Positions 13,977-61,959 of a stretch of 64,000 nt of DNA are shown in pieces. The notes below the pieces were generated by a model. That model did no database searches and had not been told where the DNA came from. It saw nothing but the letters and a program-made list of their open reading frames with translations. The translations under genes and the position numbers were made by a program. Location: contig JBDRVV010000002.1 in assembly GCA_039802005.1 (NCBI GenBank), positions 1 to 64,000 on the forward strand. Reading direction: 5' to 3'. Numbering within the stretch: the first letter of the stretch is position 1; each line of letters starts with the position of its first letter. The stretch is from a candidate division WOR-3 bacterium. Lineage in GTDB: Bacteria > Hydrothermota > Tepidihabitantia > SM23-42 > JAOAFX01.

Positions 13977-15344
13977 CTATCTTAATAGCACTACCTTCTC
14001 TACCTTATTGAAACCGCTCCCATCAAATTTGACAAAATACACACCCGCAGGAAGTTTGCGACCCTCATCATCATCACCAAACCAGATGATACTGGATTCA
14101 TGATTCATGATACAGGATTCAAGATTAAAAGACTTAACCACCCGACCCGAAACATCATAGATTGACAAACTTACACTCTGATTTCTTAATCCAGTATCAT
14201 GTATCGTGTATCTTATATCAAGTCTTTTCCTGAATGGATTGGGATAGACTTCTAATTTCGGATTTCGGATTGCGGATTGCGAATTTTTTAAATCTTCGAT
14301 ACCGACGAGATTAATTCCAAAGAAGTGCATAATGGAATCAAGCAAGTCTGCCTTTTTTGAAGAATCATTATCCACAAGTCCGGAAAGTTCAAATGATACA
14401 CCAACTGATTTATAATTGTTTGTGATATTTGCCACACCACAATAATAATCATCATCTCGGTCATGGAAGATTCTAAAACCCGTCTCTGTTGAATCTATCA
14501 CATCAAGATAGAAATTCTCACCATTGTATCTGAATTCCATACCCTGAGTAAATGTGTTATTTACCCCTTCAACTGGTCCCATATTTGTATAGCCATCGCT
14601 TATTGGTCTGATACCAAAATATGGGTTGAAATCAAAACCGAACATTACAAAAGGGTCAAATGCCCAGCATTCACCACCCTCAAGATATACATTACCAGCC
14701 TGATTTATGAAATCTATAACTTTTTTAACCTCATTGCAATCTTTAAATAATACATAATTTTCATAAGCTACACCTGTACAGATAAATAGCGACTTATAGT
14801 TTTTTAAGCATTCAAATGAGTAAAATTGTGTATTTATGTAATCGCCAACATAACCGAGATTTTGCAGAATTGAATGTATTATTGGTCCACTTGAATTGTT
14901 CCTATCCGGGTCCCAGACAAGATAATCTTTTTTGCCAATTATGACCTTTATCCTTATCGTATCAATATCACCTGAATTTTCACTCAATATCAAATCAATA
15001 TCAGCAAATGTTCCTTGCGGTGCATTGGATACCGCCTGAATCCGGAAAGAAATTGAATTTCTCACCAACGAATCAATTAAAACACTACCGAAATATGCAC
15101 TGCCATTTACAATGTTAAGATACGGTGATGAGCTCAAGATAATACCGGTTAAATTTTGGATATCAACCCCGCCGACATTCTTCAGCAGATAATAAAGTTC
15201 TACCTCTTCACCCGGGTCCAAAATGCCATTACCGTTTCCTGATGAATCATCAATAAAATATGAAACAAGGGTGCAATGGGCAGAATCGTCTGTGTATGAA
15301 AGGATTATGTCATCGGCGAAGACCTTCGCCTCTGCATGGAATGG
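13977..15344 (-). CDS. T9SS sorting-domain protein, 3' part after an in-frame TGA
   Basis: This is the downstream part of a gene whose reading frame continues, without shift, from the fragment at 15345-15899 across a single TGA (15345-15347). If translated alone it could start at a TTG ending at 15221. After the TGA comes AKVFADDIILSY, the last strand of a carbohydrate-binding-like jelly roll begun in the 5' part, so the two parts are one protein. A C-terminal T9SS type A sorting domain follows (LEVYPNPF ... LSIYDVSGRVV ... LPAGVYFVKF). The linker before it holds a short-word repeat (SAIRNP). Probable fate: secreted or cell-surface cargo of SprA. The TGA may be a mutation, an assembly error or a leaky stop. 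Confidence 0.75.
   Translation of the reverse strand, partial: PFHAEAKVFADDIILSYTDDSAHCTLVSYFIDDSSGNGNGILDPGEEVELYYLLKNVGGVDIQNLTGIILSSSPYLNIVNGSAYFGSVLIDSLVRNSISFRIQAVSNAPQGTFADIDLILSENSGDIDTIRIKVIIGKKDYLVWDPDRNNSSGPIIHSILQNLGYVGDYINTQFYSFECLKNYKSLFICTGVAYENYVLFKDCNEVKKVIDFINQAGNVYLEGGECWAFDPFVMFGFDFNPYFGIRPISDGYTNMGPVEGVNNTFTQGMEFRYNGENFYLDVIDSTETGFRIFHDRDDDYYCGVANITNNYKSVGVSFELSGLVDNDSSKKADLLDSIMHFFGINLVGIEDLKNSQSAIRNPKLEVYPNPFRKRLDIRYTIHDTGLRNQSVSLSIYDVSGRVVKSFNLESCIMNHESSIIWFGDDDEGRKLPAGVYFVKFDGSGFNKVEKVVLLR
14266..14292. repeat. 'ATTTCGGATTGCGGATTGCG' word repeat inside coding sequence
   Basis: Tandem near-copies of TTCGGATTGCGGATTGCGAA in the linker before the sorting domain, read as SAIRNP. 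The same words recur in 48269-48345 inside another sorting domain. Confidence 0.6.
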
Positions 15345-47964: not shown

Positions 47965-48064
47965 GTTTTTTGGTGAAGAAGTGAGTATGGAAATGTGAAG
48001 TAAGAAGATAGTATTTTAATCTCCAGATTCCCACATCCAACCTCCTAACCCACTTCCTCACCTA
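47965..48064. repeat. Inverted pair of 'GGTGAGGAAGTGAG' word repeats
   Basis: A plus-strand copy (47965-48008) and a minus-strand copy (48029-48064) of the repeat also found at 27106-27172, together filling the spacer after the S8 peptidase gene. Confidence 0.5.
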
Positions 48065-48072
48065 ACTTCACA

Positions 48073-49800
48073 TCATCTCAAAAGAACCGCCTTCTCAATC
48101 TGCTTGTAATCTTCGGCCTCTAACCTCACAAAATAAACCCCCGCAGGCAATCTGCGACCAGAATCATCACAACCATCCCAGATGATACTTGATACCTGAT
48201 TCAGGATACAGGATGCAAGATTGAAAGATTTAACCACCCGCCCCGTAACATCGTAAACCATTAATAGAATTTCGGATTGCGGATTGCGAATTGCGGATTG
48301 GGAAAAAGACATTTCGGATTGCGGATTGCGGAATGCGAAATTGTTTGGATTTTGGGATTTGGTGATTGGGATTTGAAATTTAATAACGCAGTGATTCTGG
48401 AATGGATTCGGTAATACATTGAGCGAGATTATCATATTTTTCGTCTTGCTTTGTTCATGGATACCGGTCGTTGCCTGTAATGCCTTCCAGACATTCAACC
48501 TTCCCCAACCATAATTATTATTCGGATATGGTGCACCAGCAGCGGGTCTATCCGCATTATTGAGCAGAATATTATAAATCTCAGTAACTGAAAGATTTGG
48601 ATTTTTCTCAAAAAGTATTGCCACTGCACCAGTAGCATGGGCACAGGAGAATGAAGTTCCATGGATTGTTGTGTATTGCTGATTGAGCCAGGCAGTTCTT
48701 ATGCTGTAACCAGGGGCGCTCAAGTCCGGTTTTGTTAAATTCCAGTCATTCCTATACCAGTATGTAGTATCATTCCAGGGGGTTGTATCAGGTGCCGGAC
48801 CACGGGAAGAGAACGACACTATTGTATCATTTAGATTTGTGGCACCGATGCCCAGTACCGTTGGATAGTTGCCTGGAGTATTTGTAGTCATTGAACCAGG
48901 GCCAGCATTTCCAATTGAAAAGACTGGCAAAATTTCAAGTGATTTCAGGTTATTACAGATATCCCACCAAGTGAGGACAAATTGATTTGAACTCCCCCAG
49001 GCATTGTTAATTGCCCTGATATCAAAACCGGAATCCACTTTTAAAGTAGCGAACCACTGTAATGCAACAATTGGGCTAACATTACCTCCGATCATTGCAA
49101 CACATAATTTTACATCTGGGGCTACACCGATATCATCGGTAAACGGACCCAATCCATCACCACCACATATAATACCAGCACAGGCTGTGCCATGACCATT
49201 GTCATCGTATGGATATGGGATACCATGCCAAAAATCCCGCCACTTTATTAACTTACCACCCCTTAGTGCCGGATGGGTCGTATCTATACCAGTATCAAGC
49301 ATGCCGATTATAATACTATCACCGGTATATCCATAATACCAGCAGGAATCCGCCATTATGCGCTGAATATTCCATTCAGGTGTGCGCGATGCTGTTCCTG
49401 ATTCTTCTATAATGGGAGTTGGCTTGACCTCAGGGATATGGGAAATCAATCTTACTGACGGATGACGGGCAAGTTCTTTTATAACTCGCACACTCGCCCT
49501 TAAATATATCCCATTCACAATCCAGAATTGCAAAACAGAATCTATTTCCCCGGAGAATCTTTGCAAAAATTCTATAATTGGTTTTTGGCTATTTCTGGCG
49601 ATTGATTTGAATACTTCTGCCTTTTGTTTTATGGTCAGATCTCCAAGTGTATTGTTAGGATAAGGTTGATTGATAATAACTAAAACCTCAATTCTTGTAT
49701 CGTCGCTAATCTTTATTAGTTGTTCTTGTAGTTGTGGTGAAATGTTTTCCTGTCCTGTTTCCAATCCAAATCCAACGAGTATTAATAAAACTAACCACAT
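48073..49800 (-). CDS. Subtilisin-like serine protease with T9SS sorting domain
   Basis: 575 residues. Leader MWLVLLILVGFGLETG, then Gln. A pro-domain-like region is followed by the S8 triad: Asp in GMLDTGIDTTHP (about 168), His in NGHGTACAG (about 200) and Ser in HGTSFSCAHATG (about 381). The C-terminal sorting domain (LNVLPNPFQNHCVIKF ... LMVYDVTGRVVKS ... LPAGVYFVRL) is interrupted by about 35 residues of repeat-derived sequence (SAIRNPQSE and similar). GGAGG precedes the ATG. A secreted or surface protease, likely involved in extracellular protein breakdown or T9SS cargo maturation. Confidence 0.9.
   Translation of the reverse strand: MWLVLLILVGFGLETGQENISPQLQEQLIKISDDTRIEVLVIINQPYPNNTLGDLTIKQKAEVFKSIARNSQKPIIEFLQRFSGEIDSVLQFWIVNGIYLRASVRVIKELARHPSVRLISHIPEVKPTPIIEESGTASRTPEWNIQRIMADSCWYYGYTGDSIIIGMLDTGIDTTHPALRGGKLIKWRDFWHGIPYPYDDNGHGTACAGIICGGDGLGPFTDDIGVAPDVKLCVAMIGGNVSPIVALQWFATLKVDSGFDIRAINNAWGSSNQFVLTWWDICNNLKSLEILPVFSIGNAGPGSMTTNTPGNYPTVLGIGATNLNDTIVSFSSRGPAPDTTPWNDTTYWYRNDWNLTKPDLSAPGYSIRTAWLNQQYTTIHGTSFSCAHATGAVAILFEKNPNLSVTEIYNILLNNADRPAAGAPYPNNNYGWGRLNVWKALQATTGIHEQSKTKNMIISLNVLPNPFQNHCVIKFQIPITKSQNPNNFAFRNPQSEMSFSQSAIRNPQSEILLMVYDVTGRVVKSFNLASCILNQVSSIIWDGCDDSGRRLPAGVYFVRLEAEDYKQIEKAVLLR
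48269..48381. repeat. Short-word repeats inside the S8 sorting domain
   Basis: Tandem TTCGGATTGCGGATTGCG words (48269-48340) followed by TTTGGATTTTGGGATTTGG words (to 48381). They are read in frame, without a stop, between two strands of the sorting domain. Confidence 0.6.
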
Positions 49801-54673: not shown

Positions 54674-56533
54674 ATGGCTTTACTTGAAAAGATAAACAAA
54701 CCTGATGATTTAAAAAAATATTCAGTGGAACAACTCCAGATTCTTGCAAAAGAAATTAGAGAAGAAATTTTAAAAACTGTAGCCAACAACGGCGGGCATT
54801 TAGCCCCATCATTAGGAGTTGTTGAACTTACTCTTGCTATTTATCGGGTATTTGATGGTGAAAAAGATAAAATTATCTGGGATGTAGGACATCAAACATA
54901 TGCTCAAAAATTGATAACAGGCCGGAGGGAACTATTCTCAACTTTACGAACTTACAAAGGGATAAGTGGATTTCCAAAAAGGGAAGAATCAAAATATGAC
55001 CATTTCAATACCGGACATTCATCAACCTCTTTATCTGCTGCTGCAGGTTTTGCTATTGCAAGAGACTTTAGAAAGGAAAATTATCATATCATAAGCATAA
55101 TCGGAGATGGTTCGCTTGGTGCAGGTATGGCATTTGAAGCACTGAATTACATCGGACAATTGAAAAAAGATGTCATTGTAATTCTGAACGATAATGAAAG
55201 GTCAATCGGCGAAAGTGTTGGAGCCTTATCGCAGTATCTCACCAAGATAATTACCACAAGAACATATAACAGATTCCGTGATGACTTATGGGTATTTTTA
55301 GGCAAATTTCCGCCGTATATCAGGGATCGCGCAAGGAATTTCGCAAAAAGAATACAGGAAGGTATGAAAGGTTTATACTCACCTTCAGTTATATTTGAAG
55401 AACTTGGTTTCAGGTATATCGGACCACTAAATGGGCATAAACTAAACGAACTCATTGATACATTCTCAAGGATAAAAGAGATGCGGGGACCACGATTAGT
55501 CCACGTAGTAACAAAAAAAGGAAAAGGGTATAAAATAGCGGAAGAATCGCCAGAAAGATTTCATGGTATAGCACCGTTTGACATAAATACTGGCATAGAG
55601 AAACATAAATCCAACTCATACACAAACGTTTTCGGTAACGCAATTGTAAAATTCGCTGAGGAAAATAAAAAAATTGTTGCCATTACGGCTGGTATGTGTC
55701 TGGGCACAGGTCTGAAGGATTTTTCATTAAAATTTCCCGAACGATTCTTTGATGTCGGAATTTGTGAACAACATGGAGTCACTATGGCAGCGGCACTTGC
55801 ACTTGAAGGTTATATCCCAGTATGTGCAATATATTCAACTTTTCTCCAGCGGGCATATGACCAGATTATCCATGATGTCTGTCTGCAAAATGCACCGGTG
55901 ATATTCGCAATTGACCGTGCCGGACTTGTTGGGGAAGATGGGCCAACCCATCATGGACCTTTTGATTTATCTTATCTTAATTGCATCCCCAATATCATAA
56001 TAAGTGCACCCAAAAACGGCACAGAACTGGTTTCTCTTTTAAAAACTGCGATAGAATATCGTAAGGGACCCTTTGCAATCCGTTATCCTCGCGGCAATTG
56101 TGTTCAACCAGTAAATTATAACATTCCAACGGTAGAAATTGGTAAATGGGAAATTTTAAATCAGGGTAAGGATTTTGCAATAATTGCCTGCGGTTCAACT
56201 GTCCAAACGTGTAGTGAAGTATTATCTTTATTGCAAAAAAATAAAATGAATCCATTTTTAATAAATGCCCGATTCGTTAAACCACTTGATTACGAACTAA
56301 TTGATAAACTCAGTAGAGATTTGAAAACAATATTTATCGTTGAAGAAAACACTTTTTTAGGTGGATTGGGAAGCACAATCGCAGTATATCTATCAAATAA
56401 AAATTCAAAAATAAAGATTTATACGATCTCCCTGCCCGACAAATTTATTCCCCACGGTGCACGAAATATTTTACTCAATGCGGTCGGTCTTGACACCCAT
56501 TCCATTGCGGATAAAATTATCAAGTTGTTATGA
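54674..56533 (+). CDS. dxs: 1-deoxy-D-xylulose-5-phosphate synthase
   Basis: 619 residues, usual length. TPP-binding motif GDGSLGAGMAFEALNY (about residues 152-167) with NDNERSIGESVGALS, then the transketolase pyrimidine domain (GICEQHGVTMAAALALEG, DRAGLVGEDGPTHHG) and C-terminal domain. It condenses pyruvate and glyceraldehyde 3-phosphate in the first step of the MEP pathway, whose last enzyme IspH is at 11.6 kb. No Shine-Dalgarno. The stop overlaps the sprA start by 4 bp (ATGA), coupling isoprenoid synthesis to the secretion gene. Confidence 0.95.
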   Translation: MALLEKINKPDDLKKYSVEQLQILAKEIREEILKTVANNGGHLAPSLGVVELTLAIYRVFDGEKDKIIWDVGHQTYAQKLITGRRELFSTLRTYKGISGFPKREESKYDHFNTGHSSTSLSAAAGFAIARDFRKENYHIISIIGDGSLGAGMAFEALNYIGQLKKDVIVILNDNERSIGESVGALSQYLTKIITTRTYNRFRDDLWVFLGKFPPYIRDRARNFAKRIQEGMKGLYSPSVIFEELGFRYIGPLNGHKLNELIDTFSRIKEMRGPRLVHVVTKKGKGYKIAEESPERFHGIAPFDINTGIEKHKSNSYTNVFGNAIVKFAEENKKIVAITAGMCLGTGLKDFSLKFPERFFDVGICEQHGVTMAAALALEGYIPVCAIYSTFLQRAYDQIIHDVCLQNAPVIFAIDRAGLVGEDGPTHHGPFDLSYLNCIPNIIISAPKNGTELVSLLKTAIEYRKGPFAIRYPRGNCVQPVNYNIPTVEIGKWEILNQGKDFAIIACGSTVQTCSEVLSLLQKNKMNPFLINARFVKPLDYELIDKLSRDLKTIFIVEENTFLGGLGSTIAVYLSNKNSKIKIYTISLPDKFIPHGARNILLNAVGLDTHSIADKIIKLL

Positions 56534-59500
56534 ATTTATTCTTAATTCTTTTAATAAACCAGTTTACCCTGCCCTATGAGATTAAAACATTTGTTACTTC
56601 AGATATTCAGTATATAATATACACAAGATTTTATCAGGGGGAGTTAATCAGTATTGACAGCATTGTGCCCTTGCCCACCTATCTTTCTGCAGGATTAAAA
56701 AAGAAAAATCAGAAATTGCTGTTGAAAGAGCTCCAGAGCGATTTGATTAAAAAAGGTGGATATGCAAACAAAGGTTTGTTTGGCACTTTTGAAGTACCGC
56801 TACCCAAGGGTGGATTCAGCGATTTTATGGGCGAAACTGGTAAACTTGATGTAGGAGGATACATAAAGATAACCCTGGGTGGAACCGAGACCTTTTATTC
56901 AAATCTACCAGCAGACCAGCAAAGAACCTCACTCCTACCTGAGTTAAAGATGGAACAGGAAATGGCAGTTAACCTTGATGGCGAAGTTGGCGACCGTATG
57001 AAGGTATTCATTGACCATAATTCAACAAGGGTGGATGAAAATGAGAATAAAATTCGCGTAACCTACAAAGGCAAAGAAGATGAAATACTCCAAGAACTTG
57101 AAGGGGGTGATACACAACTTTCCATTCCCGGAACGAGTTATACTGGTGATATTCCATCCCATCAGGGGCTGTTTGGGCTTAAATCAACAGCAAAATTAGG
57201 ACCGGTTGATATTGTTGGAATTGCTTCAAGGGAACAGACCCAGTTCAGTGAACAGGAAATAACCGGCGGGGCAGAAAGTATGCCCGATACAATCTGGGCA
57301 AGGGATTACCAGAAAAGACAATTTTTCTGGCTTGGGACCAGTGATTCAATCATTGAACTCCGTGTTTATATTGATGACGGTAATCCAGCAAATAATAATA
57401 ATGGAATCACGCGCTATGCCTACGCATATCTTGATTTAAATGATGATAATATTCCGGATGACAGCCTCGAAAAAGAGGAAGGATTTTTTACTTTAAAATA
57501 CGAAGGGCCTGTCCAGGATTACCAATTTTTTGGAAGAAGAGTGAATATCATTGAATTGAAAAACAGTCTTTATAATAATATTGAGGCACTCGGCGTTTAT
57601 TATCGTAAAGTCAATAGTCAAGGCAAGGAAGATACTGTTGGTTTTATTGGTTCTGATACATTTAGATTAAAACTCATATGTCCGAGAACCTTTAGACCGA
57701 CATCACTCACCTGGAAATATTATGAATTAAAAAATTATTATCGTATTGGCGGTCCGGGTGGAATGGTTGATACAATCAGAATATATCACAATGTAGCCAA
57801 TGGTATTGATGAAGATATTTATCAAAACAGAACTTTATTATCCATACTCGGGCTTGATAATGATAATAATAATGTAGTGGACCCATACAATGGATATGGT
57901 GGATTTGATTTTAATCGTGGGCTCCTGATCTTCCCCGAGCCAACACCATTTGTCAACAACAATCTTCCTGAACCTGATTCCGAGGTATATACCAATCCCT
58001 ATTATTCAATTGGACCCGACAAATATTACATATATACAAAATCTGTTCAGGTAAAGCGTATCTTCAGCATTCCATTTAACACAAAAAGAGTAAGAGTCTA
58101 TATAAATGATGTTTTGATAGATTCAACCCAATATGTTGTGGATTACGAGGGTGGTAAACTTGAGTTTTTAAGACCGCTTTCAGTAACCGATAGAATCCGT
58201 ATCCAGGCAGAATATACAACATTATTCTCTGCTTCCCAGAAATCACTCATCGGGTTAAGGGCAAACTCAAAAATATTTGGAGAAGGAAATTTAGGTTCTT
58301 CTTTCTTCTATCGCACGGAATCTTATCAAACCGCACCCTATGAACATATAAGACTAAATGAAGAGCCATATAATCGCATGGTATGGGAGGCTGATTTTGC
58401 ATTACCCGGCAAGATTCCTTACTTAACAGAACTCATTGATAATCTACCACTGATAAAGACTGAAGCCGAATCAAAATTCAACATTAATTTTGAAGGTGCA
58501 TATTCATTCTCAAATATAAACTCACAAAATGCGGTATATCTGGATGATTTTGAAGCCACGACCATAAACCATTCTGTCGCTTTAACAAAAAATTACTGGC
58601 ATCTTTGTTCAAAACCAGTAAATCAGGATACTGGAAATTTTGCCAAAAAAAGGATAATCTGGTATAATCCACCAAGCAGAAATGTATTTAAAATGGAAGA
58701 CATTTACAATAATCCGACTGATCCAAAGGCAATTGCTGAAGTTCTGCAGATTCAATTCACCCCTGATAATCTCCAATCCTTTGCTGGATTAACTCAATAT
58801 ATCACAAACACCAACCTTGATGAATGCGAAAATATTGAGTTAATTGTAAACGGTACGGGTGGTAAAATTCACATAGAAATTGCTGAAGAAATCAGTGAAG
58901 ATCAATTGCGCAGAAATAAAAAAGGCGAACTCGTTGGTCTCAACACATTTGAAGACGAAGATAATGCACCAAGGAACTTTTCCTGGGATGCAGTCAACGA
59001 AGACAGGGGGCTTGATAATGTTGCGGGTAAAGATAACCAGAGTGTCAGTGGAGATGATGGAAATGATGATTATGTAGACGAGGATTATTCGGGTGGAATA
59101 AATGGAACTGAAGGAAATGGAATATGGGACACAGAAGATATAGACCGAAATGGAATATTCAACTTAAGTTCAAATATATACCATAGTTTTTCCGTGCATC
59201 TCGATTCAACACGATTTCTTGTTGAAGGAGGTCTAAAGGATGGCTGGAAGATGTTCCGCATTCCATTGAAAGATTCGTTGGCGCGCGATACTTCCTTTGG
59301 CACAATAAACTGGCAAAACATTAAGTTCGTTCGTATATGGTTTGACAATTTTTCCAAAACAGAAGTGATCTATATTCATAAATTGAGTTTGACTGGAAGC
59401 AGATGGAAAAATTATGGGATTGTAGCCAATGATTCTTTATATCCTGTTGATACAACAGAAAAATTTGTTATTACACCGGTTAATACTGGAACCCATACTT

Positions 59501-61959
59501 ACTATCGACCACCTTATCCACTTCCCATAGACCCTATCACAGGAAAGACAATAAATGAAGGTGGTTTAGAATTCAATTTACTGAATGTCAAAGAGAATCA
59601 TACCTGCATTGCCTATCGCAGGGTAGAAACGCAGGAGGATTACCGCGGTTATGATACATTGGTATTTTATTTTAGGACGCTACACTCAAATCCAGAAATT
59701 GCCCTGCGCTTTGGCTCGGATTCAAATTATTATGAATATAAAACTGATTATGAAACAGGGATATTGGGATACAATAATTGGCGAAAATACACAGTAATAT
59801 TGGCTAATTTTCCGGAATTGAAGAAAAAAACTGGTGGTATTGGTAAATTTACCGAAGGTTCTTATACTGTTTCTGGAAATCCGTCATTAGAAACAAATCG
59901 TTTTTTTGAAATCAGAATCACAAATAAATTTACTACCCCACTCACCGATACGATGTGGTTCAACGATATCAAACTTACATCTCCTAAATATGAAATTGGT
60001 AGAATCTTCAGATCAAATGGCTCCCTAAATATTGCTGATTTATCAAGCATAATATTTGCTTATTCTGAATCAAACGGCAAATTCAAAAGATTATCAGAAT
60101 CTAAAAATATTTCAACATCCGGTCCAGGCAGAAATTATGGTATAAATTCTACGATTTCACTTGATAAAATTCTCCCCACAACCTGGGGCTTCAGTATTCC
60201 TTTGGGATTGAGTTATAATAAAAATATTCAGGAACCGAGATACTCATCTACGATCGCATCGGATATTGAATTAGATGATTCAAGCCGTACATTGGAAAAA
60301 TCAATGAGCACGGTCCGCGGTTATAATATAAGTCTTTCAAAAACCGGTTCCAAAAACTGGTTGATGAAACAGACCCTGGATAACCTTAGATTTTCCAATG
60401 ACCGCACGATTAGCATTTCAAACGGTCCAAAAAATGCCGATACATCTGATTTAAGGAATTATCGTGGTGAATATAGTCTTGGACCGAAGGCATCAATTAG
60501 ATTCTTTAAGCAACAAATATCTCTTCTACCCCAGACAATCTCTTTTAGTTCACTATATACAGAAAATTTGATAAAATCATATCGTCGCGATAGTCTAAAT
60601 CAACCATTTAATACGAGTCCTGGTTATCCCCAGCATCGCAAGACACTTACCCCATCGTTTTCCACAAGTTACTCGCCACACCAAATTCTATCAACATCGT
60701 ATAACTTTGCCCAAACAAGAGATTCGGTATCAGAGAAATGGCGTTTGGGTGAAGAAGTAAACCGTACCCAGACATTCAATAGTCGCATTTCAAAAGACTT
60801 GATACTTCTCAATCCGTCCTTACAATTTTCTGCGAATTACAACGAAGACCATAGATTTGAATTGCGTAAACCTTATGACCGAAGGGGAATTAACAACGCT
60901 TCCAATATAAGCATCTCGACAATCGCTGATATCAAAAAAGTGGTAAAATTTTTAACCCACCTGCGCGATGAATCAAAAGACAGTCTGCAGATCCCCGGCT
61001 CGCCGTTATGGGTCGTAAAACAGATTGAAACATTCGTTGACCTCATCCAGAATCCCAGCATAAGTTTCTCACGACAAAAATCGTCGGGTTATTATAGCAA
61101 ATTAAGACCGGATTTAAAGTATCAATTTGGTCTTGTTGATACAATTCCATCGGATCAAATTGATCCCAATAGTTACTCAAGCCGCAGTATAACCGATAAT
61201 TTTAGTGCAGGTTCGGGTATCAATTATAAGATATTTAGTTTGAATGGTAGTTACTCAAAACAAATTAATAGAAGTTTTGGTTATAGCGGTGATGAAAACA
61301 GAAGTGTGACTGAATCTTACCCGGGTGCAAACCTACGAATTTCAAGCGTAGAAAAAATTCCGATGCTCAAAAAGTATGCATACACATCGTCAATAAATAT
61401 AGGTTTAAACCAAAATTACATGAGACTCTACAGGGTCTCTCCCGACACAACTCCTGAATTAACATCGGATAGCAAAACCCTATCTTTCAACCCATTACTC
61501 GGTTGGCAGGTCAACTGGAAAAGAGGTATTACCACCAACGCAAATATTAATTACTCCGAAACTCAAAATCATCAATATTCAGATATGTTCATAAATCCTT
61601 CCAAATCTGTAAATTGGGGTGGCTCAATGTCTTTCGCTTATACATTTAGTGCACCAAAGGGAATATCCCTGCCGTTGCTTCGTGGTATAAGATTTACATC
61701 AAATCTTACAACAAACATAACATACAGTTACAACCGCAATACAAGTTACGCAGCATCAATAGAAAATCCAAACGACCTTGATATGGATAATCCAGTGGCT
61801 GATAATGAAAATAGTAATATTGATGTTTCATTTAGTTATAATTTTTCAACAAGCATTACCGGGGGAGCGAATCTGAATTATTCCCGTAATCAAGACCGGG
61901 TTTTTAATAATAGTTATCGAAGGGTAGGTCTAAATATATGGGCAAATATAAATTTTTAA
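56530..61959 (+). CDS. sprA: SprA-type T9SS outer-membrane translocon protein
   Basis: 1809 residues, smaller than Flavobacterium SprA but with its marks. Short leader (MNLFLILLIN, then Gln). The N-terminal region has GDTQLSIPGTSYTG (about 193-206). A conserved central block follows: MVWEADFALPGKIPYLTEL, then LPLIKTEAESKFNINFEGAY and VYLDDFEATT (about 617-680). Ca-binding-like Asp/Asn runs appear around 830-880. The C-terminal 600 residues alternate as barrel strands and end in a Phe (NINF). In Bacteroidota SprA/Sov forms the giant pore through which sorting-domain proteins leave. It overlaps dxs by 4 bp and the glutaminyl-cyclase-like gene by 22 bp. Identity rests on motif memory. Confidence 0.83.
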   Translation: MNLFLILLINQFTLPYEIKTFVTSDIQYIIYTRFYQGELISIDSIVPLPTYLSAGLKKKNQKLLLKELQSDLIKKGGYANKGLFGTFEVPLPKGGFSDFMGETGKLDVGGYIKITLGGTETFYSNLPADQQRTSLLPELKMEQEMAVNLDGEVGDRMKVFIDHNSTRVDENENKIRVTYKGKEDEILQELEGGDTQLSIPGTSYTGDIPSHQGLFGLKSTAKLGPVDIVGIASREQTQFSEQEITGGAESMPDTIWARDYQKRQFFWLGTSDSIIELRVYIDDGNPANNNNGITRYAYAYLDLNDDNIPDDSLEKEEGFFTLKYEGPVQDYQFFGRRVNIIELKNSLYNNIEALGVYYRKVNSQGKEDTVGFIGSDTFRLKLICPRTFRPTSLTWKYYELKNYYRIGGPGGMVDTIRIYHNVANGIDEDIYQNRTLLSILGLDNDNNNVVDPYNGYGGFDFNRGLLIFPEPTPFVNNNLPEPDSEVYTNPYYSIGPDKYYIYTKSVQVKRIFSIPFNTKRVRVYINDVLIDSTQYVVDYEGGKLEFLRPLSVTDRIRIQAEYTTLFSASQKSLIGLRANSKIFGEGNLGSSFFYRTESYQTAPYEHIRLNEEPYNRMVWEADFALPGKIPYLTELIDNLPLIKTEAESKFNINFEGAYSFSNINSQNAVYLDDFEATTINHSVALTKNYWHLCSKPVNQDTGNFAKKRIIWYNPPSRNVFKMEDIYNNPTDPKAIAEVLQIQFTPDNLQSFAGLTQYITNTNLDECENIELIVNGTGGKIHIEIAEEISEDQLRRNKKGELVGLNTFEDEDNAPRNFSWDAVNEDRGLDNVAGKDNQSVSGDDGNDDYVDEDYSGGINGTEGNGIWDTEDIDRNGIFNLSSNIYHSFSVHLDSTRFLVEGGLKDGWKMFRIPLKDSLARDTSFGTINWQNIKFVRIWFDNFSKTEVIYIHKLSLTGSRWKNYGIVANDSLYPVDTTEKFVITPVNTGTHTYYRPPYPLPIDPITGKTINEGGLEFNLLNVKENHTCIAYRRVETQEDYRGYDTLVFYFRTLHSNPEIALRFGSDSNYYEYKTDYETGILGYNNWRKYTVILANFPELKKKTGGIGKFTEGSYTVSGNPSLETNRFFEIRITNKFTTPLTDTMWFNDIKLTSPKYEIGRIFRSNGSLNIADLSSIIFAYSESNGKFKRLSESKNISTSGPGRNYGINSTISLDKILPTTWGFSIPLGLSYNKNIQEPRYSSTIASDIELDDSSRTLEKSMSTVRGYNISLSKTGSKNWLMKQTLDNLRFSNDRTISISNGPKNADTSDLRNYRGEYSLGPKASIRFFKQQISLLPQTISFSSLYTENLIKSYRRDSLNQPFNTSPGYPQHRKTLTPSFSTSYSPHQILSTSYNFAQTRDSVSEKWRLGEEVNRTQTFNSRISKDLILLNPSLQFSANYNEDHRFELRKPYDRRGINNASNISISTIADIKKVVKFLTHLRDESKDSLQIPGSPLWVVKQIETFVDLIQNPSISFSRQKSSGYYSKLRPDLKYQFGLVDTIPSDQIDPNSYSSRSITDNFSAGSGINYKIFSLNGSYSKQINRSFGYSGDENRSVTESYPGANLRISSVEKIPMLKKYAYTSSINIGLNQNYMRLYRVSPDTTPELTSDSKTLSFNPLLGWQVNWKRGITTNANINYSETQNHQYSDMFINPSKSVNWGGSMSFAYTFSAPKGISLPLLRGIRFTSNLTTNITYSYNRNTSYAASIENPNDLDMDNPVADNENSNIDVSFSYNFSTSITGGANLNYSRNQDRVFNNSYRRVGLNIWANINF

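Follow-up and report, generated by a model that had tools for sequence, protein, structure and literature searches.

Have short DNA repeats entered the export tags of secreted proteins in frame, and how did they come to lie there? This question is raised by the window, the whole 64,000-nucleotide stretch analysed here on contig C2 of a candidate division WOR-3 genome of 2.54 Mb (G000; C numbers denote its contigs), in which two genes end in type IX secretion system (T9SS) sorting domains that carry runs of seven-base words. An earlier note on this DNA had proposed that such words entered both domains in frame, and had likened them to Rickettsia palindromic elements (RPEs). We distinguish two kinds of run. 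F1 is a heptamer repeat with units GGATT(T/G)C, searched for with the pattern GGATTKCGGATTKCG allowing up to one mismatch; F2 is a heptamer run of GATNCAN that codes for a SCIxNxxSSI-type peptide and was searched for with GATDCADGATDCADGAT. Three sites that carry heptamer runs in the sorting domains of G000 are named below: linker A precedes YPNPF, loop B joins strands 1 and 2, and loop C leads into the SIIW strand. The other WOR-3 genomes named are the congeners G069 and G068, G067 of family f1, G105 and G120 of f10, and G137 and G138 of f34.

Two sorting domains in the window carry a heptamer repeat

The features of the window on which the analysis turns are the following.

48073..49800, minus strand: S8 subtilase with a C-terminal T9SS type A sorting domain, 575 aa (Pfam PF00082, 154.7 bits; TIGR04183, 23.5 bits, cut-off 23)
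48076..48411, minus strand: sorting domain of the S8 protease, from PNPF to the last residue (TIGR04183 match C2:48091-48333; AlphaFold mean pLDDT 81.7)
48269..48337, plus strand: F1 array in loop B of the S8 protease, two blocks linked by GGGAAAAAGAC (TRF period 7, 9.9 copies)
48351..48375, plus strand: second heptamer-like run (TTTGGGA), coding QIPITKSQN at the end of strand 1 in the S8 protease (period 7, 3.6 copies)
48191..48221, plus strand: F2 run (GATNCAN) in loop C of the S8 protease, coding NLASCILNQVSS (similar sequence in an F1-free congener)
13977..15221, minus strand: second gene with a T9SS type A sorting domain (TIGR04183, 34.6 bits, cut-off 23; PF18962, 33.2 bits)
14255..14286, plus strand: F1 in linker A of that gene, directly before YPNPF (4.6 copies; stop-free minus-strand peptide SQSAIRNPK(LE))
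14189..14212, minus strand: F2 in reverse orientation, strand 1 / loop B of that gene (RYTIHDTGL; F2 pattern match)
14088..14125, plus strand: F2 in loop C of that gene, coding NLESCIMNHESSII (F2 pattern match)
56530..61959, plus strand: SprA, T9SS translocon (TIGR04189, 313.8 bits with neighbours in frame, cut-off 200)

The runs lie where the earlier note had seen repeat words: between two strands of the S8 protease sorting domain, where we found arrays at 48269-48337 and 48351-48375, and in the linker of the 13977-15221 gene, where the array spans 14255-14286 (14266-14292 in that note). Its stop-free, SAIRNPQSE-like reading also holds for both genes, the S8 protease F1 array being translated from the minus strand as FAFRNPQSEMSFSQSAIRNPQSEI and the linker array as SQSAIRNPKLE. 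The position of the array differs between the genes, a loop between two strands in the protease and a linker before the domain in the other, as does the phase of the last unit (2 for the 14255-14286 linker A array versus 0 for loop B copies).

On the S8 protease, PF18962 scored 19.0 bits, below its cut-off of 27. In the AlphaFold model of its sorting domain, strands span residues 17-22 and 57-62 with none in between, residues 31-50 have a pLDDT of 46-51, and the F1 repeat is predicted to sit in this disordered, low-confidence loop between strands. Foldseek gave six matches to the domain at E <= 0.001 (TMq 0.42-0.56), of which five are T9SS proteins (PorU twice, a NucA substrate complex chain, PorZ and the mirolase CTD) and one is a C5a peptidase. 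The tryptic peptides predicted to span loop B are FAFRNPQSEMSFSQSAIR. Relatives of the protease come mostly from candidate division WOR-3 or Stahlbacteria genomes, with a few titled Hydrothermota, Bacteroidales or Zixibacteriota. With SprA present and the PorV family above cut-off in five frames of G000, the host is predicted to have a type IX secretion system; the SprA gene shares the 64-kb window with both repeat-bearing cargo genes.

F1 behaves as a dispersed repeat concentrated at sorting domains

The F1 pattern matches 81 times in the G000 genome and its reversed control 0 times, a result far from chance, and the matches merge into 39 arrays of about 15-90 bp each. Sorting domains in G000 were taken as 129 found with the HMM TIGR04183 plus two array-bearing domains added by eye (C14:1690 and C14:28090), 131 in all. 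Seventeen of the 39 arrays overlap or lie just upstream of the 129 HMM-found domains, and 19 lie within 70 bp of the 131, against 1.8% expected (131 domains with their 70 bp margins make up 1.84% of the genome); the p-value of 5e-23 assumes independence, which the arrays lack. In the congener G069, sorting domains hold 14 of 22 F1 arrays, with a p-value that likewise assumes independence and is too small. The position bias that the earlier note had raised is seen in both genomes. At these domains F1 runs antisense to the gene in all 17 G000 arrays at the HMM-found domains and all 14 of G069, and is read as a hydrophilic IRNPKSE peptide.

Were the peptide conserved in distant homologues, the earlier note had argued, it would be ancient protein sequence. 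For F1 such conservation was not found. F1-free domains exist in both G000 and G068, and an alignment of 33 domains has a gap at loop B in those that are repeat-free. Copies outside sorting domains, also at issue in that note, were searched for and found to share the internal order of the others. Over the 39 arrays, T-type units change to G-type 24 times and the reverse occurs 4 times; the start ATTTC-GGATTTC is common to many arrays outside sorting domains; and a two-block layout (joint GGGAAAA..ACATTTC) is found in the S8 loop (C2:48267), in the sorting domain at C58:6493 and, away from sorting domains, at C16:60603. The remaining G000 copies are intergenic or at apparent N-termini, and in two instances fall in a very long frame, with gene limits around F1 copies judged by eye. 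Because unit order is similar at sorting domains and elsewhere, F1 appears to be a dispersed DNA repeat, more than a protein motif. A phage collection searched with the F1 array gave no match.

One F1 match, RIADGESLDDILPEAFAL at C17:17818 in a frame that we take to be SecA-like, looks like a chance coding match and is still included in the 39 arrays. Apparent protein N-termini with F1 are those of L083:1487-2245, L101:1492-2703, L113 (C16:60603) and L320:575-1552. Signal-peptide-like starts occur among the N-terminal copies (MNKI-LDFGLRIAK and MKSEIRNPKSEI), and one copy, MSE-LNPKSEIRNPE, opens what is presumably a hydrogenase-like large subunit.

The second loop is probably old domain sequence

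Both window genes share a second loop, as the earlier note had recognised (48191-48221 and 14088-14125). That this loop is a second inserted repeat is not supported: the KSFNLxSCIxNxxSSIIW loop is found in domains of G068 (NLASCIMNRASSIIWDG and NLESCIVNRVSNVIWDG), the kind of conservation that by that note's own criterion would mark old protein sequence, and G068 (84% complete) has no F1 match at one mismatch. F2 matches 52 times in G000 (its control, 0). Of its 19 arrays there, 15 are at sorting domains, or 13 if the two by-eye domains are left out, for which reason F2 was rejected as a dispersed repeat in this genome. The other four arrays are single one-mismatch matches, three of them reading DAGYKID, DAGLKMD and DAGFKIV in long frames. 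Since the loop is conserved in G068 without F1 and the arrays are mostly at sorting domains, F2 is probably old domain sequence with a heptamer-like texture, not inserted DNA. In the 13977-15221 gene the two F2 runs are oppositely oriented and form two weak inverted repeats.

F1 occurs in other families and in unrelated proteins

Exact F1 matches occur in 32 of the 147 genomes of a phylum sample that includes G000, and the reversed control gave 0 in every row. In the fetched loci 51 F1 arrays were read; setting aside four repeat-read rows (two of L315 = L180, one of L321 = L179 and one of L326 = L177) leaves 47, and one from G069 leaves 46. Outside G000 and G069, 7 of these 46 distinct arrays are at sorting domains, in G067 (f1), G105 and G120 (f10), and G137 and G138 three times (f34), with a p-value of 3e-5 at an assumed 2% of the genome; the 46 are not all independent, as L182/L328 and L326/L332 are each the same gene in two genomes. 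F1 is thereby placed in sorting domains of at least three WOR-3 families. Six of the seven copies are in the linker or domain start and one, that of G067, is in loop B. Both orientations are represented, giving PQSAIRNP and PKSAIQNP as well as the opposite-strand peptides GIADFGLRIA, RISDFGF, GLRIAE and GLRIAD, which stand at or near linker A in G105, G120 and G138.

Outside sorting domains, a YmdB phosphodiesterase has an in-frame insertion with RNPKSE that measures 17 residues against 4b2o and 16 residues against 1t70; among the F1-bearing proteins aligned here, this is the only clean gap. EF-G (L318:817-2958, G139) has an in-frame F1, NPKSEIRNPKSE, at a break of its best PDB alignment. The EF-G stretch after F1, ITINSQLRGTQHLCISA, likewise falls beyond the segments aligned with the best match and could be another insert. 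In an HdrA-like frame F1 lies within a stretch without significant alignment, and in an Fe-S reductase F1 is aligned through and does not appear as an insertion. Neither case speaks for insertion, and the two slightly lower our confidence in the explanation preferred below. For ten genes outside sorting domains, the last unit has phase 2 in six, phase 1 in two and phase 0 in the other two. Pooled phase counts for such genes (8, 8, 8) were discarded as uninformative, because each added unit moves the phase by one, and the last unit alone was used.

Loaded domains have probably spread within the genome

Insertion phase, which the earlier note had also brought up, varies in one respect and is uniform in another: the last-unit phase differs between genes, linker A versus loop B, and is constant within each site in G000. 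There, 16 of 16 site-B rows have phase 0 and six of eight rows labelled A have phase 2, the two exceptions being, by their peptides, loop B rows of C58_6301. This constancy implies that the sorting-domain arrays of G000 are not independent insertions. When the sorting domains of unrelated genes are compared as DNA, PN-56 (the linker repeat), PN+1 and PN+31 are frequent starting points of homology in the best 90 of 373 pairwise rows; frequent end points are the stop codon and a position about 54 bases upstream of it. Given a single phase per site, and homology that sets in at the repeat or the domain start, many in-genome F1 copies probably spread by copying or recombination of whole sorting domains. 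At a minimum, the G000 lineage would have undergone one insertion at A and one at B, to which those in other families are to be added.

Orthologous genes were compared between G000 and G069 using 80 of 88 chosen G069 stretches, so that some of 144 domains were missed. The S8 ortholog in G069 is 89% identical and matches through FQIPxTKSQNPN, where the 48351-48375 run is retained as QIPSTKSQN; it then has a different second half of the domain, starting NVGQGFSLA. The C14_1690 pair differs in strand 1 and loop B (F1 in G000 versus an F2-like IHDTGYMIK in G069) with both sides conserved. Loop B differs in length between C58_6301 and its ortholog L309, C14_8096 diverges in loop C and over much of the second half, and in C12_162 the entire domain differs just past the linker repeat. 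Of the seven ortholog pairs read at the DNA level, three conserve F1 (C22_42451, C22_44856 and C10_70852), and none has a clean empty F1 site with both flanks near-identical. C6_82315 carries a clean in-frame 36-bp insertion with its own inverted repeat, lying inside the palindrome AAGGCT..AGCCTT and absent in G069, where the flanks are near-identical; this insertion is a hairpin-like sequence other than F1.

Loop B is filled differently in G000, G069, G068 and G067. Exact copies of the palindrome GCAAGGCT..AGCCTTGC number 14 in G000 (two in sorting domains, positions by eye), 42 in G068, at least 39 in G069 and 5 in G067. Other repeat-like words in loop B (G068 L219, L222, L225, L228 and L231; G067 L234) are VGQGFxLA twice, ILNQVQDND, CYSATQYGG and PPPLPSPLEGEDKGGG; the dispersed-repeat count for loop B words covers the VGQGFSLA palindrome only.

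The data do not show the repeats to be a cause of domain exchange: relative to the gene body, identity of the C-terminal half drops by over 30 points in 5 of 12 repeat-bearing versus 14 of 56 other ortholog pairs (Fisher p 0.29; the 68 pairs are those with usable values out of 131 domains, with the repeat-bearing label given by hand and palindrome-bearing domains included in it). At repeat-free sorting domains, too, DNA identity falls abruptly from mostly 90-100% in the gene body to about 60-82% at the domain edge. Such drops between G000 and G069 are seen at C12:55281, C16:20514, C13:34330 and C22:45881, and look as if recombination tracts ended at the domain edge. In G000, the contig ends C44:381 and C51:9621 share one gene body but differ in the second half of its sorting domain, and may be duplicate genes, strain variants or an assembly effect.

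The F1 copies in sorting domains could also be passengers, an ancestral domain having gained F1 once per site and duplication or gene conversion having made the copies, an account to which we give somewhat less than an even chance. It draws on the phase fixed per site (16 of 16 at 0 in loop B, true linker A rows at 2), on the recurrent homology starts at PN-56, PN+1 and PN+31 among the best 90 of 373 rows, and on the ortholog pairs with exchanged halves. However, linker A and loop B copies differ in phase, linker copies in f10 and f34 are in other sorting domains and some are oppositely oriented, and the YmdB and EF-G copies cannot derive from a sorting domain.

Discussion

The explanation that we prefer, and consider likely, is a dispersed heptamer repeat that was tolerated in frame and then multiplied with copied sorting domains. 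F1, about 15-90 bp long and with a recurring unit order, would reside both outside and inside genes of WOR-3 genomes. Seven is not a multiple of three, so whichever frame of a strand is read, an F1 run yields the same peptide, and GGATTTC and GGATTGC have no stop in any of six frames. We infer from placement that insertions of net length a multiple of three are tolerated in exposed loops, linkers and N-termini; T9SS sorting domains, with about 130 copies in G000, would offer the flexible linker before PNPF and the loop between strands 1 and 2. Loaded domains would then have been copied onto other genes in this genus, presumably by recombination, multiplying F1. As for how F1 itself moves, slippage together with ectopic conversion between copies is a guess. 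Six-frame openness as a selected trait was rejected for want of evidence: 33.6% of tandem heptamers at this composition are open in six frames. Among random 30-mers only 1.3% are open in all six.

Local slippage, by which each array would have expanded at its own site out of a few tolerant coding bases, is an improbable alternative. The units are tandem heptamers whose number varies by site, and loop B differs in length between the orthologs C58_6301 and L309, much as slippage would have it; yet the T-type/G-type order and the two-block layout recur in unrelated places, and the reversed pattern is without matches. We think it quite unlikely that F1 encodes a functional peptide, a spacer or recognition segment of the sorting domain kept by selection. 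Its conservation in 3 of 7 ortholog pairs and the hydrophilic orientation of 17 of 17 arrays at HMM-found domains in G000 and 14 of 14 in G069 would be expected of such a segment, but at the pattern level F1 is in just 16 of 131 sorting domains of G000, it is absent from G068, whose loop B holds other sequence, the peptide in G105, G120 and G138 is that of the opposite strand, and the segment is predicted to be disordered. A DNA-uptake or regulatory word tolerated in genes is very improbable, for although uptake sequences of Pasteurellaceae and Neisseriae can be intragenic and orientation-biased, they number hundreds to thousands in the part of the literature cited (PMC2346458), against only 39 arrays per 2.54 Mb here, and F1 forms long arrays, not a single short word.

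Beyond the in-frame tolerance and domain copying that we prefer, we tentatively suggest a broader reading, possible though less likely than not, in which the export tag of the T9SS offers repeat DNA a general refuge. Linker and loop B would have been entered independently by unrelated repeats in several WOR-3 families (heptamers in both orientations, the GCAAGGCT..AGCCTTGC palindrome and the nested 36-bp hairpin sequence), and the repeats would then have served as joints for domain swapping between secreted proteins.

The likeness to RPEs that the earlier note had drawn holds for behaviour and fails for structure. RPEs are described, in the portion of the source relied on here, as dispersed palindromic elements of 100-150 bp, some lying in open reading frames without loss of frame and in solvent-exposed parts, the repeat group near a given site differing between species (PMC3767692). 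Like RPEs and their Wolbachia relatives, F1 is dispersed, with copies between genes and in frame within genes, and its occupancy is similarly variable, loop B being one site with different contents in the four genomes compared. Unlike them, F1 is seven-base periodic, about 15-90 bp long and concentrated here in one domain type. Nor is it palindromic: inverted repeats of 10 or more bases number 0 in 48060-48440, the two inverted-repeat pairs in 13980-14300 (72% and 82%) lie between the F2 runs and outside F1, and single-strand folding of F1 is weak (z -1.9 and -1.5).

Other known systems are alike in part. The heptameric tandem repeats of Nostoc, Calothrix and Xanthomonas are genome-dispersed seven-base units, and those studied in Nostoc and Xanthomonas are, in the cited part of the work, G-rich and under-represented in coding regions (PMC4692102), whereas F1 is here concentrated in coding loops. 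Over 35-38 bases, the window array resembles stretches of three Nostoc plasmids and one Caballeronia plasmid at 87-89% identity, a weak match (E 8e-3). Enterobacterial RU elements are, as far as the cited section goes, small intergenic repeats with open frames, found in gene loci including that of an exported protein; they differ from F1 in being 103-168 bp long and MITE-like, not heptamer runs (PMC2759123). In Porphyromonas gingivalis, according to the passages cited, recombination reshuffles parts of T9SS surface proteins in such a way that the C-terminal domain is conserved and adhesin modules move (PMC5266723); here, in contrast, the sorting domain itself differs between orthologs. Our search of open-licence papers turned up no account of T9SS sorting domains that carry repeats, and none of repeats in WOR-3.

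To our knowledge, in-frame repeat DNA in working genes is known chiefly from the palindromes of Rickettsia and Wolbachia. The present case would extend this to a distant phylum that is uncultured, where the repeat is harmless for a simple reason, its seven-base unit being free of stops, and has one kind of protein site that it prefers. It carries a warning for annotation, in that SEIRNPKSEIRNP-like peptides would reflect repeat DNA and not homology, and it opens to testing both the passage of non-coding repeats into protein and the possible evolution of export tags through swapping assisted by repeats.
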